IMG/VR virus record: IMGVR_UViG_3300005563_000024
Span: 1 to 38,498 of that record
From: a virus
Length of the DNA stretch: 38,498 bases
Reading direction: 5' to 3' (one strand)
How positions within the stretch are numbered: position 1 is the first letter of the stretch; every line of letters begins with the position of its first letter. Under the pieces are notes generated by a model. It was not told the DNA's origin and made no database searches. It saw only the letters and a program-made list of their open reading frames with translations. The position numbers and the translations under genes were made by a program. Below, in pieces: positions 6,854-38,498 of this stretch.

Positions 6854-7294
6854 CTAAAATGGAATCGTCTCGTCCGATGGGGCCGGGATCTTCTTGGCTG
6901 GCGCAACCACAACAGGCGACTCAGCCGGGGCCTTGTTCTTCTCGTAGTCCTTGACGCTATTCTGTGGCCCGTACTGCTCGCTGTCTTGAATGCGCAGGAT
7001 CACGCGACCAGTGCGGCCCTTGCAATCCTCGGCATTGAACGTGCCAGCGTCATAGGCTGCCTTCATGCCGGTAGTGTCCGCAAAGTGCTTGAGCTTGAAG
7101 CCCATGCTTGGCATCAGCCAGTCACGGATTGAGCGCTCGCCACGATCGCTGAAGATGCGCAGCTTGAGGGCAATCATATCATTGCCGCTCTTGCTGACCG
7201 CCTCCTCGGCGCTCATCACCTCAAAGTCATACGTCCCGGCTTCCAGCAGGGTTTCGCGCTTGAGGTCTTCTTCGGTTTTAGGGGTAAACTTCAT
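6854..7294 (-). CDS. Single-strand DNA-binding-like protein, DUF669 type (146 aa)
   Basis: From ATG 7294, behind AGGA, the product MKFTPKTEEDLKRETLLEAGTY opens like DUF669-type phage proteins that travel with Sak4 ATPases. The middle has beta strands (MIALKLRIFSDRGERSIRDWL) consistent with an OB-like fold. The last residues, after a Pro/Ala-rich linker, are SDETIPF, close to the acidic DDxIPF tip by which SSB proteins bind partners. It likely coats single-stranded DNA for annealing by the neighbouring ATPase. An ATG at 7333 in frame lacks a ribosome site. Confidence 0.8.
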   Translation of the reverse strand: MKFTPKTEEDLKRETLLEAGTYDFEVMSAEEAVSKSGNDMIALKLRIFSDRGERSIRDWLMPSMGFKLKHFADTTGMKAAYDAGTFNAEDCKGRTGRVILRIQDSEQYGPQNSVKDYEKNKAPAESPVVVAPAKKIPAPSDETIPF

Positions 7295-7335
7295 GTGATG
7301 TTCCTGAGGTAAGTCCGGGTCAAAGACCGGCATTG

Positions 7336-8205
7336 TTATTTGGGAAGGAGTGAACGCAGGTAGGCAATGCGCTTGACCATCATGGAGGATTCCAGTTCCT
7401 TCACATCAGGGCAGGCGGCATTCCACTTTTCGATGGCTTCGGCTGGCACCTTCACGGCTTCCAGCAAGGACTCATATTCCTTGACCTGTGCTTCGTTGGC
7501 CATCTCCACCTTCTTGGCGGCGGCTTCCATCACAGATTTGCCATAGCGATCCGCAAAAGCGGCATAGCTCCAGTCGAACGATTCCGCATCTGGGAACGCC
7601 TCAAGGCGAGACTTGACCACCTTGGCCTTACGGGTTCCGCCCGTCTTCGTGATGTGCATGGCCAGATGCAGTTCGTACATAAGCTTGTCATAGCCGTCGA
7701 ACGTGATGCCCACTTCCTTGCCGCCGCTCCACTGCACGCGCTCGTGACAAATCAGAATCACATTCATGTCCAGCTTATCCAGCCATGCGATGAGGCGGCG
7801 GGTCAGGCCGACAGCTGGCTTCTTGCTTGCACCGAAGGCGTCCTCAAGGCGTGCCTTCTCCATGGCTTCGGCGGTGAGAGCGATCTGTGTGTTGAACAGC
7901 TTTGAGAAGCTGTCGATCACAAGCGTCTTGTATGGGTGGTCGGTCGTGGCAAGCGTCTGGACTTCTTCAATGACTGACTTGAAGTCGTTAGCGCCATCGT
8001 CAGGACCCATATACGCAGCACCGCTAGCCTTGAGCTTCGCGGCATAGTGGGCAAGGTCTGCGCCACCTTCGGTATCAATGTAGTAGACACTGGGAAACTC
8101 CAGGCTGGTCCAGGTTTTCCCAACGCCAGGCGCTCCGAAGATAAGGACCTTCGGCTTGGATGGGGTGATAGTTTTAGGGTCGTGACCCTTGAGTGCTCGT
8201 GACAT
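7336..8205 (-). CDS. RecA-like ATPase, Sak4-type recombinase (289 aa)
   Basis: The ATG at 8205 follows GAGGAATC; 25 residues of upstream in-frame sequence are rejected as non-native. The product carries Walker A GAPGVGKT (residues 24-31), a following strand YYIDTEGGAD, and a Walker B-like KTLVIDSFSKL. ICHERVQW comes next, in the place of the sensor strand. This is the AAA_24/Sak4 arrangement of phage single-strand annealing ATPases, about half the size of full RecA. The C-terminal 60 residues are helical (MEAAAKKVEMANEAQVKEYE). With the SSB-like and RusA-like genes downstream it forms the phage's own recombination pathway. Confidence 0.88.
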   Translation of the reverse strand: MSRALKGHDPKTITPSKPKVLIFGAPGVGKTWTSLEFPSVYYIDTEGGADLAHYAAKLKASGAAYMGPDDGANDFKSVIEEVQTLATTDHPYKTLVIDSFSKLFNTQIALTAEAMEKARLEDAFGASKKPAVGLTRRLIAWLDKLDMNVILICHERVQWSGGKEVGITFDGYDKLMYELHLAMHITKTGGTRKAKVVKSRLEAFPDAESFDWSYAAFADRYGKSVMEAAAKKVEMANEAQVKEYESLLEAVKVPAEAIEKWNAACPDVKELESSMMVKRIAYLRSLLPK

Positions 8206-8234
8206 GATTCCTCGTGACCGTGTTATAAAGCTGG

Positions 8235-8309
8235 TCAGGCTTGAATGTGTTTGGTCGCCCAGCAAAAGAATGCGTGCCACTCAGGCGGAAGGTCGGGAGG
8301 AATTGGCAT
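8235..8309 (-). CDS. Possible 24-residue peptide
   Basis: ATG 8309 overlaps the stop of the gene above (TAATG), and the frame MPIPPDLPPEWHAFFCWATK... ends at 8235. The codon choice looks protein-like and it is the only frame in this 103-base gap. A TATAAC box lies downstream of it at about 8222-8227 on the minus strand, so the gap may also hold a promoter for the Sak4-like gene. Confidence 0.35.
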   Translation of the reverse strand: MPIPPDLPPEWHAFFCWATKHIQA

Positions 8310-8606: not shown

Positions 8607-9065
8607 TCACTCCGTTTGCTGATGGGGTTGGTGGGATAGGGATTCGGCGAGGTTGAGGCAACGCTGGGCGTACTCTTTGGCCGACTTCTTGTTCCTGCCC
8701 TTGAGGCCACGGTGGTACGCCGCAAGCGCTTCTGCGTGGCTACCGGTGACCGCCAAGAGGTGAGCGTACCAATCACGGAAAGCCCGCTCACATGCCCGAA
8801 CGTCACCGTGAATGGACCCGGTGCTGCGGGTAATCTGAAGTCCGCTAAGTACACCCCCGGTGATTTGCCAGGGACCGGCTTCCCCGTCCGTTCCTCTGTT
8901 ATACGAACCCAGCACTCTGCCAGGAGATACCCACGTCGTCCCGGTTTCAACGGCACAGACTGCTGCCGTGATGTGGTCGATTGACAGCGTGATTTCCGAG
9001 GCCGGTGCTTGTGGGACATGGGCTGCCAGTGCGAGGAGGGTGATGAGGAGGGGGCGAAGGATCAT
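8607..9065 (-). CDS. Exported lysozyme / lytic transglycosylase (152 aa)
   Basis: Residues 1-23 are a signal peptide (MILRPLLITLLALA...PAS|E), so the enzyme would reach the periplasm through the host Sec system. The core shows the SLT/goose-lysozyme layout: AVCAVETG with candidate catalytic Glu40, GPWQI (64-68) in place of the GxxQ motif, and AAYHRG (115-120) matching AYNxG. It probably cleaves peptidoglycan as the phage endolysin; a virion-associated role is possible but signal peptides favour lysis. It overlaps the upstream gene by ATGA and is followed by small membrane and lipoprotein genes on its upstream side. Confidence 0.85.
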   Translation of the reverse strand: MILRPLLITLLALAAHVPQAPASEITLSIDHITAAVCAVETGTTWVSPGRVLGSYNRGTDGEAGPWQITGGVLSGLQITRSTGSIHGDVRACERAFRDWYAHLLAVTGSHAEALAAYHRGLKGRNKKSAKEYAQRCLNLAESLSHQPHQQTE

Positions 9066-9394
9066 GCTCTGACCGGAGGACGAACGTCGTACTTGAGGTC
9101 AATGCGAACGGACGAGACGACATCCGTCTTCTTGAACCACTCTTGGCCGGGTTCGTAGTCCTCAAACTTCTCGGACTCCTCGGTGATCAACTCCTTGGTT
9201 TTGATCCACCCACGCACGCGAATCCAGCAGAAGCCGTCCTTTTGTAGTTCGTCCCATGCGTGCCACGATCCGTCATTATCGACGGGCGATGTCTCCATGA
9301 GCAGGCGCGCAGCCTTCTCAATGGTATCGACGGGATTCTCCGACCATTCCTCGGTCGTGAAGTCGCAGGGCATCCAGTATAATTCGCCGTCCAT
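9062..9394 (-). CDS. Hypothetical acidic protein (110 aa)
   Basis: A strong AGGAGG precedes ATG 9394. The product MDGELYWMPCDFTTEEWSEN is rich in Trp, Glu and Asp. The central part (DELQKDGFCWIRVRGWIKTKELITEESEKF) is beta-rich. The end, VSSVRIDLKYDVRPPVRA, is basic. There is no signal peptide, so it is cytoplasmic. The acidic surface is reminiscent of small inhibitor-type phage proteins, but that is only a general impression. It is coupled to the lysozyme gene by ATGA. Confidence 0.7.
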   Translation of the reverse strand: MDGELYWMPCDFTTEEWSENPVDTIEKAARLLMETSPVDNDGSWHAWDELQKDGFCWIRVRGWIKTKELITEESEKFEDYEPGQEWFKKTDVVSSVRIDLKYDVRPPVRA

Positions 9395-9785: not shown

Positions 9786-9958
9786 AGCGATCCTTTCGAG
9801 TGAATGACCGGCCCGAACGCTTTGATAAACGTCGGGCGGAGGTATGCGCAGATTGTCCAGCCGTGTAATTGGACACCGACTGGGAGAGGCAGGCGACGGC
9901 GCACGATGCGGCGGGGGACTAAGGCGCGGAGGGAAACAAGCGACGGCTTGAGGATCAT
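9782..9958 (-). CDS. Small basic protein (58 aa)
   Basis: ATG 9958 overlaps the stop of the pilin-like gene (ATGA) and its TGA overlaps the next GTG start (GTGA), so it is bracketed tightly on both sides. The product MILKPSLVSLRALVPRRIVRRRL continues with a hydrophobic, aromatic stretch (VGVQLHGWTICAYLRPTFIKAFG). The pattern, a basic segment then a moderately hydrophobic one, suggests membrane association. Its size is below usual gene-calling cutoffs. Confidence 0.6.
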   Translation of the reverse strand: MILKPSLVSLRALVPRRIVRRRLPLPVGVQLHGWTICAYLRPTFIKAFGPVIHSKGSL

Positions 9959-10281
9959 CGCTCAACCTTCACGTTGGTTTTGCCGTGCCGCTCAGTGACA
10001 AGCTGAGTTGTTCCACATCCCTGAGCCGCAAGGTATCGCTCGCCGGTTTCCGTGTCGGTGATGATGTAGATGGCCCGCTTGCTCTCGCGGTCTGGTTCGC
10101 TGCATGCGAATGCGCCATGCGCCTCGACCGTGAACCTGCCCGGCGCGGTTTGCGCCTTGAGCGGTGCGACCTGATCCGTTTTCCGGTCGGCCATGATTAC
10201 CGGAATGGCAATCGCGGCGACAATGAGGATGATGGCCACGCAAATAGCCAGCTCCACAAGAGAAAAGGCGCGGCGGCTCAC
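9955..10281 (-). CDS. Type IV prepilin-like protein (108 aa)
   Basis: The GTG start at 10281 overlaps the lipoprotein gene's stop (GTGA). The product begins MSRRAFSLVELAICVAIILI, an excellent class III prepilin leader: basic residues, then A|FSLVEL with Glu5 of the mature protein, then about 20 hydrophobic residues ending in AIAIPVI. Residue -1 is Ala rather than the usual Gly. The C-terminal domain (IYIITDTETGERYLAAQGCGTTQL) resembles a short DUF6440-type module. It may be processed by the host prepilin peptidase and enter the pilus or secretion apparatus, or be a spanin-like protein that resembles a pilin by chance. Confidence 0.7.
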   Translation of the reverse strand: MSRRAFSLVELAICVAIILIVAAIAIPVIMADRKTDQVAPLKAQTAPGRFTVEAHGAFACSEPDRESKRAIYIITDTETGERYLAAQGCGTTQLVTERHGKTNVKVER

Positions 10282-10616
10282 TTGCCCATCCCCTTCGCCA
10301 TATCCAGCGCAATGAACTGCGCGGGCTGGTCCTTCTGGAAGTAGCGCCCAATCAGCACGCCGTTGCGGAAGGTGGCAACCCTGATGCCAGTGGCGCAGGT
10401 GTAGTTCCCGGCGAAGTCCATGCGCGGGTCCAGTCCGTGATGAACCACGCGAGTGTCGCCGTTTGGCAACTGCCACTCGGCAACGAACGAATCGTAATCG
10501 CTGCGGGCGTTATCGTATTCGCTACGCGTTATTTCCCCGCATCCCGACACCAGGACGGCGAGGATGATGGTGGCGAGGAGGGTGAGCAGAGGTTTGATTT
10601 GCAGGCTATGTGGCAT
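10278..10616 (-). CDS. Lipoprotein (112 aa)
   Basis: AGGAGCTACC precedes ATG 10616. The signal peptide MPHSLQIKPLLTLLATIILA ends in a lipobox LVSGC, predicting lipidation at Cys26. The mature part (GEITRSEYDNARSDYDSFVAEWQLPNGDTRVVHHGLD...) is soluble and contains a short beta domain. It is coupled by GTGA to the pilin-like inner-membrane protein. An inner-membrane protein plus a lipoprotein is the arrangement of two-component spanins, though neither protein shows a coiled coil. A role in exclusion or surface change is an alternative. Confidence 0.75.
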   Translation of the reverse strand: MPHSLQIKPLLTLLATIILAVLVSGCGEITRSEYDNARSDYDSFVAEWQLPNGDTRVVHHGLDPRMDFAGNYTCATGIRVATFRNGVLIGRYFQKDQPAQFIALDMAKGMGK

Positions 10617-10663: not shown

Positions 10664-10798
10664 CTATTTCTTTTTGGCCTTCTCTTTTCTGCGCTTTTCC
10701 CTGGCATTTACCATCTTTTTGGCGTGTGCGCTGCGTTGTTCCGGGGTGGTATCCTTCCAGCGGAGGGATGCCATGTGGCTTGCGTGTGCATTGGTCAT
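10664..10798 (-). CDS. Small basic protein (44 aa)
   Basis: From ATG 10798 the product contains MASLRWKDTTPEQRSAHAKKM and ends in a Lys/Arg run. Similar short proteins (…TPEQRSxxAxKM…) occur in many phages, usually near terminase or regulators, with unknown role; the 42-residue protein at 32194-32322 here has the same style. It is divergent from the plus-strand operon and shares its 77-base regulatory gap. No ribosome site is obvious, so the inner ATG (MASLRWK) may be the real start. Confidence 0.55.
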   Translation of the reverse strand: MTNAHASHMASLRWKDTTPEQRSAHAKKMVNAREKRRKEKAKKK

Positions 10799-10808
10799 GG
10801 GCAGGAAG

Positions 10809-10852
10809 CTAGCGCAAGATATTGATTTGACAAGCGGCGCATCTTGCGCTAG
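10809..10852. promoter_or_regulatory. Perfect 12-bp inverted repeat, likely operator
   Basis: ctagcgcaagat (10809-10820) and atcttgcgctag (10841-10852) are exact inverted copies 20 bp apart, centred in the divergent gap between 10798 and 10876. The repeat encloses the -35 box of the plus-strand promoter and its right arm reaches the -10 region. A dimeric regulator bound here would block or reshape that promoter. The operon's own two-HTH protein or its ParB-like protein are the natural candidates. Confidence 0.7.
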
Positions 10853-10855
10853 ACC
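10827..10855 (+). promoter_or_regulatory. Sigma70-like promoter for the ParB-like/PP-loop operon
   Basis: TTGACA at 10827-10832 is a perfect -35 box. With a 17-bp spacer the -10 would be TAGACC (10850-10855), which matches only the key T1, A2 and A4. The weak -10 inside the inverted-repeat arm suggests a controlled promoter. The start codon at 10876 is about 20 bases downstream. Confidence 0.55.
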
Positions 10856-10875
10856 GCAGCGCACAAGGGGAATCC

Positions 10876-12003
10876 ATGAGTGAGCAAGAGGTCATCGCTG
10901 ATGTCGTCGAATCCTGCGCCTTCCTATTCGGCGCACTGGCAACGCTGCCAATGGCTGAGCGCATCCAGGCCATCAACGCCGTGCGATTGGAGTTGTCCAA
11001 GTGCAGCCCCTTCCGCTCTGAGCCGGTGGACTGCGTCCAGTGGGTGCCGTTCGCATCCGTGGAGGCCAACGACTACAACCCCAACAGCGTTGCGCCACCT
11101 GAGATGAAGCTGCTGGAGCACTCCATCACGGAGGATGGCTACACCCAGCCCATCGTGGCTTGGTCCAATGAGGGCAAGTACACCGTGGTTGACGGCTTCC
11201 ATCGTCATCGTGTGGGCCGTGAGTCCGATACCGTCAAAGCGCGCGTGCATTCCCATCTGCCATTGGCCATCATCAACAATGACCGCGCCGACCGCAATGA
11301 CCGCATTGCCTCCACGATCCGCCACAACCGCGCCCGTGGCAAGCACAAGGTCGAGAGCATGTCGGAGATCGTGATCGAATTGAAGAAGCGCAACTGGTCA
11401 GATGACAAGATCGGCAGGGAGTTGGGCATGGACCCAGATGAAGTGCTGCGTCTCTGCCAGGTGTCAGGCCTTGCCGATGTGTTCAAGGATCACGAGTTCA
11501 GCAAGTCATGGGAGGTCGGTGGTGATGTGGCATACACCGATCTGGATGAGGATGACATTGAGGCCATCGGAGAGGCGGAGGAGGGACGCATCCTGCATAC
11601 GTTCGACAAGTGGGAGTGCCATGCGTTCAACTTCTACGGCACCACGGCACCGGACGGAATGACCACGGAGGAGGCGGAGGAACGGTATCGGCTGCTCCTG
11701 TCGGATGAGACGGCATTCGCCACCACGCTGGGACAGGTCGTCGCCGAGTGGAAACATTCCTGTGAGCACTACCTGACAAACGAGAAGATGAACCGCATAG
11801 CGTGGCTGGGACAGGCGGCATTGGCCAGGGCGCACCGCATCCCGTCCGGCTATCGCGGCGGCTACAACCTGCTCACCGAGGCGCAACAGAAGCGGGCGGA
11901 TGAGCTGGCGCTGGATGCATTGAACCGCTGGCTGGTCGCCAATGATCGCCCTACCGTCACCATGAGCGGCGCACGCTCGAAGCTGGAAGCGGAGCTATAC
12001 TAA
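10876..12003 (+). CDS. ParB/Srx-fold protein, IbrB-like with extra C-terminal domain (375 aa)
   Basis: AAGGGG precedes ATG 10876. Residues about 50-135 form a ParB/sulfiredoxin-like domain: PFASVEANDYNPN, GYTQPIV, and VVDGFHRHRVG (104-114), the nucleotide-binding motif of this fold. A helix-turn-helix follows (WSDDKIGRELGMDPDEVLRL, about 165-185). The order ParB-like then PAPS-reductase-like matches the IbrB-IbrA pair described in E. coli as activators of prophage genes. Unlike typical IbrB, which is about half this size from memory, this protein has another 170 residues (KWECHAFNFYGTTAPDG... to the end) of helical character and unknown role. It overlaps the next gene by one base (TAATG). Confidence 0.85.
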   Translation: MSEQEVIADVVESCAFLFGALATLPMAERIQAINAVRLELSKCSPFRSEPVDCVQWVPFASVEANDYNPNSVAPPEMKLLEHSITEDGYTQPIVAWSNEGKYTVVDGFHRHRVGRESDTVKARVHSHLPLAIINNDRADRNDRIASTIRHNRARGKHKVESMSEIVIELKKRNWSDDKIGRELGMDPDEVLRLCQVSGLADVFKDHEFSKSWEVGGDVAYTDLDEDDIEAIGEAEEGRILHTFDKWECHAFNFYGTTAPDGMTTEEAEERYRLLLSDETAFATTLGQVVAEWKHSCEHYLTNEKMNRIAWLGQAALARAHRIPSGYRGGYNLLTEAQQKRADELALDALNRWLVANDRPTVTMSGARSKLEAELY

Positions 12004-13217
12004 TGTCCACCCTCAAGCGATACACCGAGACTGATGTGCTAACCGCTGCTCGCGAGCGGGTCAACTATGCGTTCGACAATTTCGAGCGCGTTTACATTTC
12101 CTTCTCCGGGGGCAAGGACTCCAGCGTGATGTTCCACGTCACGGCGCAGGAGGCGATCAAGCGAGGCCGCAAGTTTGGTGTCCTCATCATCGACCTAGAG
12201 GCGCAGTACAAGCGCACCATCGCACACATGGAGGAGATGTGCGACCACTATGCCGACATTATCGACCTGCATTGGGCGTGCCTGCCGATGCTCCTGCGCA
12301 ATGCCGTGTCCAGCTTTGAGCCTCGCTGGTGTTGCTGGGACCAGGCCGCCAAGGACATCTGGGTTCGCCATCCGCCCAAGCGCAAGGGCATTATCACCGA
12401 CAGCGCATTCTTCCCATTCTTCCAGGACAAGATGGAGTTCGAGGAGTTCATGGTGCTATTCGGTGAATGGTACGGCCAGGGCAAAGACGTGGCTGGGCTG
12501 GTTGGCATCCGCGCCGATGAGAGCCTGAACCGCTTTCGTACCGTGGCATCAGCCGACAAGGAGATGCATAACGGCAAGCGCTGGACCACCAAGGTCTGCG
12601 AGCATACCTACAACATCTACCCGCTCTACGACTGGAAGACGCAGGACCTTTGGAAGTTCCATGCGGTGTACCGCGATCTGCCCCACAACAACGTCTATGA
12701 CATGATGCACATGGCTGGCCTGTCCATTCATCAGATGCGCCTGTGCCAGCCCTACGGGGACGATCAGCGCCGCGGGCTGTGGCTCTATCACATCATCGAG
12801 CCGGAGACGTGGGGATCCGTAGTGAATCGCGTCCAGGGCGCCAATAGCGGCAGCCTCTACATCCAGGAGACCGGCAATATCAACGGATATAATCGCATCA
12901 CCAAGCCAGCGGGACATACCTGGAAGTCGTATTGCAACCTGTTGCTCAGCACGATGCCGAAGATCACGCAGGACCATTACCGCGAGACGTTCACCGATTG
13001 GATGGCGAGATGGAAGGGGCGTGGGTATCCATCCATTCCCGATGAGGCTCCGCGCGATTTGGAGAATAAGAAATGGGCGCCAAGCTGGCGCAGGCTGTGC
13101 AAGTGCCTGCTCAGGAACGACTGGTGGTGCAAGGGCCTTGGACTGACACAGCCGAAGTCGGAGGCGTATGGTCGCTATCTGGCGCTCAAGAAAGCGAAGA
13201 AGGAGCAGCCAGCATGA
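12003..13217 (+). CDS. PAPS-reductase-family PP-loop protein, IbrA-like (404 aa)
   Basis: VYISFSGGKDSSVMFH (residues 30-45) contains the SGGKDS pyrophosphate loop that binds ATP or adenylylated substrates. Later parts match the DUF3440/IbrA type: a Trp/Cys-rich region (EPRWCCWDQAAKDIW), GIRADESLNRF, then DWKTQDLWKF and HQMRLCQPYG. Length is normal for IbrA. PP-loop enzymes of this family reduce sulfate or modify nucleic acids (DndC); the true substrate of IbrA-like proteins is not established to my knowledge. With the ParB-like partner it may act on DNA or on transcription. It is translationally coupled to both neighbours. Confidence 0.88.
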   Translation: MSTLKRYTETDVLTAARERVNYAFDNFERVYISFSGGKDSSVMFHVTAQEAIKRGRKFGVLIIDLEAQYKRTIAHMEEMCDHYADIIDLHWACLPMLLRNAVSSFEPRWCCWDQAAKDIWVRHPPKRKGIITDSAFFPFFQDKMEFEEFMVLFGEWYGQGKDVAGLVGIRADESLNRFRTVASADKEMHNGKRWTTKVCEHTYNIYPLYDWKTQDLWKFHAVYRDLPHNNVYDMMHMAGLSIHQMRLCQPYGDDQRRGLWLYHIIEPETWGSVVNRVQGANSGSLYIQETGNINGYNRITKPAGHTWKSYCNLLLSTMPKITQDHYRETFTDWMARWKGRGYPSIPDEAPRDLENKKWAPSWRRLCKCLLRNDWWCKGLGLTQPKSEAYGRYLALKKAKKEQPA

Positions 13218-13621
13218 CCATGCCCCGCCCCTCATCCCTCCTAGTCCGTGAGCACCTGGACTGGCTATTAGAAACAGCCAGCGAACGGACGCGCGGGAAC
13301 GTTTCCGCTATTGCTCAGCTATTGGGCGTCCATCATGGCACGGTTCACAACTGGGTGAAGGCTGAGCGGACGGTGAACTATCAGGGACGCCACGAGCCGG
13401 TCATGGTTGCTCGCCAGCTGGAACCATCGCCGGAGATCGCCACTGAGGACGCGCCGGACTTCAATCTTGACCGCATGCGCAGGCGCATGATTCGCCGTGC
13501 GCTAGGACATACGCGCGGGAATATGACCAAGGCGGCGGAGTTGCTGGGGATTGATCGGACGACGCTCTATAAGTTATTGGAGAAATACGGCGAGCGGTGG
13601 GAACCCAGCGACATCAGGTGA
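13214..13621 (+). CDS. Regulator with two helix-turn-helix units, Fis-type C-terminus (135 aa)
   Basis: ATG 13214 overlaps the PP-loop gene's stop (ATGA) and has AGGAG 8 bases upstream. The C-terminal HTH (HTRGNMTKAAELLGIDRTTL, 99-118, ending YKLLEKYG) is the Fis/NtrC-type domain. Residues 26-50 form a second unit with the same opening (TRGNVSAIAQLLGVHHGTVH), as if duplicated. There is no sigma54 AAA domain, so it is a stand-alone DNA-binding protein, a good candidate for autoregulating the operon at the 12-bp inverted repeat. Its 3' end overlaps the convergent tail operon by 8 bases. Confidence 0.82.
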   Translation: MTMPRPSSLLVREHLDWLLETASERTRGNVSAIAQLLGVHHGTVHNWVKAERTVNYQGRHEPVMVARQLEPSPEIATEDAPDFNLDRMRRRMIRRALGHTRGNMTKAAELLGIDRTTLYKLLEKYGERWEPSDIR

Positions 13622-38298: not shown

Positions 38299-38498
38299 TC
38301 AGGACTCTCTTGGTTTGTGGGGGTGGCGCTTCTTTACCCAGTAACGGGTGGTGTCCTGAACGAGAATGCTCGTCGGGTTCGCAGTCACCATCTTGCGCTT
38401 GATCCCAGACCTCTGAGCGGTGCAAATCAGGAACTCGTCCGAGCCCTGCATCTTCCGTGTGGTTTCAATGGTGGCGATTAGCAAGTAGCGACGACGGT
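38299..38498 (-). CDS. Hypothetical basic protein, 3' part (same gene as at 1-132)
   Basis: This stretch encodes the 3' portion of the 73-residue protein whose start codon is at position 132 after closing the circle. It includes LLIATIETTRKMQGSDEF and LICTAQRSGIKRKMVTANPT, ending HPHKPRES, with TGA at 38299-38301. A methionine-like start inside this portion is not needed. The stop is followed closely by the ribosome site of the MGCDIH gene. Confidence 0.8.
   Translation of the reverse strand, partial: RRRYLLIATIETTRKMQGSDEFLICTAQRSGIKRKMVTANPTSILVQDTTRYWVKKRHPHKPRES
38389..38498. repeat. Terminal direct repeat, right copy
   Basis: Identical to bases 1-110. The copy lies within a coding frame that continues through the join, as expected for an assembler overlap on a circular template. 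Confidence 0.95.

Follow-up and report, generated by a model that had tools for sequence, protein, structure and literature searches.

The locus described here raises the question of what three coupled genes, read against almost everything else in a phage genome, encode and what they do together. They lie on the plus strand of a 38,498-nt stretch of DNA (the window), an IMG/VR virus record. Its first and last 110 bp (1-110 and 38389-38498) form an exact direct repeat, so the record probably represents an entire genome of 38,388 bp, either circular or terminally redundant. The original prediction named a protein with a DGFHRH motif, an enzyme with an SGGKDS motif and a small two-HTH protein, and all three are present in the window (Table 1). 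The strand polarity was also described correctly, as the firmly annotated structural and replication genes nearby (terminase, portal, capsid protease, tail spike, Sak4 and methyltransferases) are all on the minus strand.

Gene content of the plus-strand block

ORF1 and ORF2 are relatives of IbrB and IbrA, as had been proposed. They match phrog_2159 and phrog_2302 with E-values of 3.7e-71 and 1.2e-86, well beyond what chance would give, and ORF2 is 42-44% identical to E. coli/Salmonella phage IbrA. The pair itself is already known and annotated in RefSeq, where the E. coli partner is labelled 'IbrB-like domain-containing protein'. Strong third-codon GC bias (GC3 0.78-0.79 in both genes) supports the two as coding, and they overlap by one base (TAATG, 12001-12005). 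ORF3 probably starts at the ATG at 13214, overlapping the ORF2 stop as ATGA and lying 8 nt downstream of an AAGGAG (13200-13205); its mechanical ORF starts at 13073.

Table 1. Features of the plus-strand block and its upstream region
Feature	Coordinates	Strand	Evidence or remarks
Small basic ORF, 44 aa, divergent, in the same intergenic region as the inverted repeat	10664..10798	-	sequence only
Inverted repeat, left arm CTAGCGCAAGAT, operator candidate	10809..10820	.	12 bp, perfect
Inverted repeat, right arm ATCTTGCGCTAG, operator candidate	10841..10852	.	20-nt spacer between arms
ORF1, IbrB-X fusion, 375 aa	10876..12003	+	phrog_2159 3.7e-71 (residues 34-221); contains DGFHRH
ParB/sulfiredoxin-fold NTPase domain, residues 52-155, DG-x-HR motif	11029..11340	+	AF2 model
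HTH region of IbrB, residues ~158-204	11347..11487	+	weak structural matches, Z ~5
X domain, residues ~229-375, all-helical, phage-associated	11560..12000	+	pLDDT mostly >90 over 250-360
ORF2, IbrA, 404 aa	12003..13217	+	PF01507 + DUF3440 (PF11922); contains SGGKDS
PP-loop motif SGGKDS, residues 35-40	12105..12122	+	G37 K38 D39 S40 invariant, 310 sequences
IbrA C-terminal tail	12978..13214	+	homologous to stand-alone T proteins of the Gaia-type branch
ORF3, 135 aa, two Fis-type HTHs	13214..13621	+	PF02954 2.2e-16, two stretches

IbrA has a PP-loop domain followed by DUF3440, with PF01507 scoring 45 bits (cut-off 22.5) and PF11922 scoring 117.9 bits (cut-off 25). The residues of the ATP site (G37, K38, D39, S40, D64, E66, G168, R170, E173, S174 and R177) do not vary across 310-312 IbrA sequences, and the same holds for Y206, P207, D210, W211, D215, W217 and others. 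No cysteine is invariant across 312 sequences, the best conserved being C93 (256/312) and C376 (244/312), and the cysteine dyad conserved in DndC (PMC10853773) is thus missing as a fixed feature. The IbrA model resembles the PAPS domain of an FAD synthase (8rom, Z 12.9, 4.0 Å over 166 residues), APS reductase (2goy, Z 12.0, 3.9 Å over 183 residues) and CysD (1zun, Z 12.0, 6.4 Å over 174 residues). Its scores against the CysH/CysD families are 16.9-30.8 bits, far under cut-offs of at least 154. The conserved PP-loop without an invariant cysteine favors adenylation or ligase-like chemistry over persulfide transfer, and IbrA is an ATP-using PP-loop enzyme whose substrate is probably activated by adenylation.

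ORF1 is IbrB fused to a separate conserved C-terminal domain, here called X, a fusion that the original prediction had missed. The IbrB part has the ParB/sulfiredoxin domain, the HTH and the DG-x-HR motif expected of phrog_2159. D106, G107, H109 and R110 of that motif are invariant in 305 sequences, and G184, M185, E189 and R192 are conserved in the HTH region. The model compares well with the CTP-type ParB of M. xanthus (7bnk, Z 12.0, 2.1 Å over 93 residues) and with sulfiredoxin (6ky4, Z 10.8, 3.2 Å over 89 residues), and also with the small-molecule kinases SerK and SbnI (Z 8.8). X has no Pfam, PHROG or sequence-level PDB match, and a Foldseek search with the whole IbrB-X model gave convincing matches on the ParB/sulfiredoxin side only, though X by itself may still have a known fold. 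Microcystis phage Mwe-JY13 and Pseudomonas phage Amjad_SA encode X on its own, as a protein of ~140 residues whose gene lies between ibrB and ibrA. X is a dedicated helical partner that probably docks IbrA or DNA.

ORF3, with two HTH_8 stretches in its 135 aa, was predicted to belong to a dedicated three-gene set. A search of 50,697 phage genomes gave no match to it, and one of IMG/VR a single match of 30 residues, so it is a local add-on and the exact trio is not conserved. The place of conserved third partner falls to the X domain within ORF1. ORF3 is probably a local regulator of the module. Upstream of ORF1, in a divergent promoter region (10799-10875), lies a perfect inverted repeat with TTGACA inside its spacer. 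None of 2000 shuffles produced a repeat as long, and only one of 499 77-bp tiles of the window holds one, making this element a plausible operator candidate. Further copies in the window were considered and rejected: six sites at two mismatches, against three expected, are not significant, since 7 of 100 shuffles reach six and two of the six are one site in the terminal repeat.

The minus-strand surroundings have features of their own. A Sak4-like ssDNA annealing protein and a DUF669-like protein are encoded at 6854-8280, placing early recombination genes near the cassette and opposite to it. The gene at 770-1372 encodes a DNA methyltransferase-like protein (phrog_757, 2.8e-69) that has no Pfam match. 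A prepilin-type N-methylation motif (PF07963, 4.8e-5), unusual for a phage, occurs in the ORF at 9955-10476, which is adjoined by a lipoprotein-like ORF at 10278-10616. The VirE and DNA pol A families have no match within the window.

Conservation of the module in other phages

IMG/VR was searched with five diverged, author-chosen IbrA baits, from the window and from Flavobacterium, Streptococcus, Gaia and Chlorobiaceae phages. Loci were scored with iteratively built profiles for IbrA (A), IbrB (B), X, an ectoine-synthase-like cupin (E), a stand-alone IbrA tail (T) and an SF2 helicase (H). The best 80 loci or fewer per bait were listed, where a distinct locus means a different IbrA sequence and not an independent phage lineage. 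Among the 313 distinct loci so listed, 307 have IbrB, 243 X, 105 H, 101 T and 92 E; IbrB is the neighbor of IbrA, by the one-base overlap in the window and in 307 of the 313 listed relatives. The IbrA/IbrB pair recurs in 216-222 phage records.

The order of the components is variable. With helicases omitted, the frequent orders in the listed loci are B-X-A (61), A-E=B-X-T (55), B-A (42) and B=X-A (38), followed by X-A-B (30), A-B (23), X-T-A-B (19) and A-E-B-X-T (17), where = denotes a fusion. B=X fusions occur in 39 and E=B fusions in 64 of the 313, and 614 of 642 gaps between components are at most 30 nt. The partnership is kept despite shuffled order and repeated fusions, which is strong evidence for a functional unit. 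An SF2 helicase is found in 38 of the 42 listed Flavobacterium-type loci. A SNF2/ResIII-like SF2 helicase gene also abuts IbrA/IbrB directly in four unrelated phages.

X follows the branches of the family. By the same selection of best loci, it is present in 83/83 window-type loci, as a separate gene or fused, and in 65/68 Gaia-type and 0/42 Flavobacterium-type loci; X is therefore not universal, as E. coli IbrAB without X also attests. In loci baited with IbrA or with the X region, separate and IbrB-fused forms are about equally numerous. A window-type X bait recovered 25 loci, all 25 with IbrA, a test for X without IbrA that covers one branch, as a Gaia-type X bait recovered Gaia alone. X was found in just two genome contigs, both with IbrB-X-IbrA, and in no plasmids.

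The cupin marks a further branch. PF06339 (ectoine synthase) scores 122.5 bits for the XCL1123 gene between ibrA and ibrB and 113.1 bits for the N-terminus of Gaia IbrB, and the XCL1123 cupin matches solved EctC at 7e-22. EctC has 13 residues described as strictly conserved (PMC4795551), and the cupins keep all of them, each in 87-93 of 93 sequences. Of the five phage records with a cupin of this kind, four place it in an IbrA-IbrB locus, the exception being an unverified faecal scaffold. In GenBank, the protein is already labelled 'ectoine synthase/ParB multidomain protein' in some phage records, and the Gaia-type branch also encodes a separate copy of the IbrA C-terminal tail. An isolated EctC, lacking EctA and EctB, should not make ectoine, and together with the fusion to IbrB this suggests a ring-closing step on the IbrA/IbrB product.

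The flanks of window-type loci often hold genes of DNA replication or recombination. Sak4, SF2 helicase, VRR-NUC, Cas4-like, YqaJ, RecT, SSB or related proteins are encoded in the fetched flanks of 52 of 98 such loci, and in the nearest relative (87% IbrA identity) genes for RecT, a PDDEXK protein and SSB come just upstream. DNA similarity between the window and this relative is confined to 10943-13171, which, with the reversed strand, suggests that the module is a transplanted cassette set against the surrounding genes. In Fusobacterium phage phiFN37, a second ParB-like gene (8763-9272) is followed by a queuine tRNA-ribosyltransferase gene ~3 kb from IbrA/IbrB, and these two could possibly form a second modification module.

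Proposed function and alternatives

The block is most plausibly, though at a little under even confidence, a phage-borne multi-protein module of IbrA, IbrB and X for the ATP-dependent modification of nucleic acid, the best candidate being phage DNA. The conserved PP-loop without an invariant cysteine, the lack of a desulfurase in 50 records and the precedent of an AMP-forming ligase favor such a role. The steady company of X, the NTPase fold of IbrB, the intact EctC residues of the cupin and the nearby replication or recombination genes count for it as well. IbrA would activate its substrate with ATP, probably by adenylation; IbrB, an NTPase of the ParB/sulfiredoxin fold with an HTH, would probably bring the reaction to DNA; and X, fused to IbrB in the window, probably docks IbrA or DNA. 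The most plausible target would be the DNA of the phage itself, modified as it replicates or afterwards, and the modification might serve for example in escape from host nucleases. In the branch where the cupin is fused to IbrB, it would complete a ring-closing step. In the window the module appears to be a reversed cassette with its own promoter region, and the downstream double-HTH gene is a likely regulator that may act on its own operon. RNA, protein or a small molecule may be the substrate instead. IbrA/IbrB may, more tentatively, represent an undescribed family of nucleic-acid hypermodification systems. Its parts would be an adenylating PP-loop enzyme, a ParB/sulfiredoxin NTPase bringing that enzyme to DNA, the phage-associated helical X and an optional T, in many cases joined by an SF2 helicase; one branch would add an ectoine-synthase cupin for ring closure on the attached group.

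The main rival to modification is transcription control, unlikely but far from negligible, where an IbrB clamp and IbrA would co-activate prophage or phage genes, with the IbrA ATPase as a switch and ORF3 as an extra layer. IbrA and IbrB are said, in the title of a 2002 report by Sandt and co-workers, to activate prophage eib genes, the only published IbrAB function found. IbrB also contains an HTH and is similar in structure to KorB, Noc and ParB. A strong inverted repeat precedes the operon, and its last gene encodes a Fis-type regulator. The published role in eib activation speaks against modification, as does the fact that X is not universal. A base handle of the CmoX type was sought and rejected, because a C5-methyltransferase match occurs in just 5 of 30 IbrA-bearing records, and this too counts against modification. 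A plain co-activator, however, hardly explains a fully conserved PP-loop site and a complete EctC-type cupin on IbrB, and ORF3 is not conserved with the module. The module may alternatively consume or rewrite a nucleotide or signalling molecule during infection as a different form of counter-defence. This is improbable: the ParB/sulfiredoxin fold does include small-molecule kinases such as SerK and SbnI, and the usual substrate of EctC is a small molecule (PMC4795551), but IbrB retains its HTH region and the genes cluster with those of DNA replication and recombination.

A sulfur modification of DNA, phosphorothioate-like, would make IbrA a DndC-type sulfurtransferase and IbrB a DndB-like partner. 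The suggested parallel holds at the level of the two folds, and weak DndC and BrxP profile matches (1e-5 to 1e-9) agree with it. It does not extend further, as the DndC equivalog score is 13.7 bits against a cut-off of 290.4, IbrA has no invariant cysteine, and PF00266 cysteine desulfurases are found in 0 of 50 phage records, although host IscS can substitute for the Dnd desulfurase (PMC10853773) and could supply the sulfur. We consider this role quite improbable. Database labels would agree with ordinary metabolism or plasmid-type partition, that is, an auxiliary PAPS reductase and a ParB partition protein. Sulfate reduction is rejected by the CysH and CysD scores, and ParABS partition by the absence of a ParA-type ATPase (PF13614, AAA_31) from the window and 23 related records; the pairing of the two proteins in nearly all listed loci also argues against such roles, which are very improbable.

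Roughly one in three complete E. coli genomes carries IbrA/IbrB-like genes, as do more than 200 phage records, and the sole phenotype found for them dates from 2002. With the dedicated partners X, T, ectoine-synthase cupin and SF2 helicase, two unexplained genes become a defined system of several proteins that comes with a concrete chemical hypothesis. X, T and the cupin partnership have no description in the open-access literature searched, and an earlier one may exist elsewhere. A role in DNA modification would bring a new chemistry to the conflict between phage and host; a regulatory role would call for an explanation of the conserved enzymes joined to the regulator.

Comparison with known systems

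E. coli IbrA is 44% identical to that of the window over its full length, and the IbrB domain is ~52-55% identical. The E. coli genes differ in order (IbrA-IbrB) and lack both X and the HTH gene, whereas the window has IbrB-X and then IbrA. The system is very widespread there, as 1913 of 5426 complete genomes of the species contain near matches. Three E. coli loci place IbrA-IbrB among IS remnants, next to either iro siderophore genes or a gene for a TonB-dependent receptor.

Microcystis phage Mwe-JY13 and Pseudomonas phage Amjad_SA share the IbrB-X-IbrA order, with IbrA identities of 66% and 51%, but their X is separate and the next gene encodes a YqaJ recombinase or an SF2 helicase and not a double-HTH protein. 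The Mycobacterium phage Gaia type (A-E=B-X-T) also has IbrA, IbrB and X, but differs in the EctC-like cupin fused to IbrB, the separate IbrA tail and a remote X (26% identity).

The Dnd/Ssp systems (DndB, DndC) likewise pair a ParB-like with a PP-loop protein, and the IbrA module departs from them in its DndC score, its cysteines and its lack of a phage-borne desulfurase in the 50 records. CmoX/CmoY, a DNA base hypermodification system described in 2025, uses an AMP-forming amide ligase of the asparagine-synthetase type on phage DNA bases, and its neighborhoods often hold ParBc proteins (PMC12783734). It resembles the module in being a phage-encoded AMP-forming ligase acting on DNA, as IbrA is proposed to do, with ParBc nearby, but IbrA belongs to a different PP-loop family.
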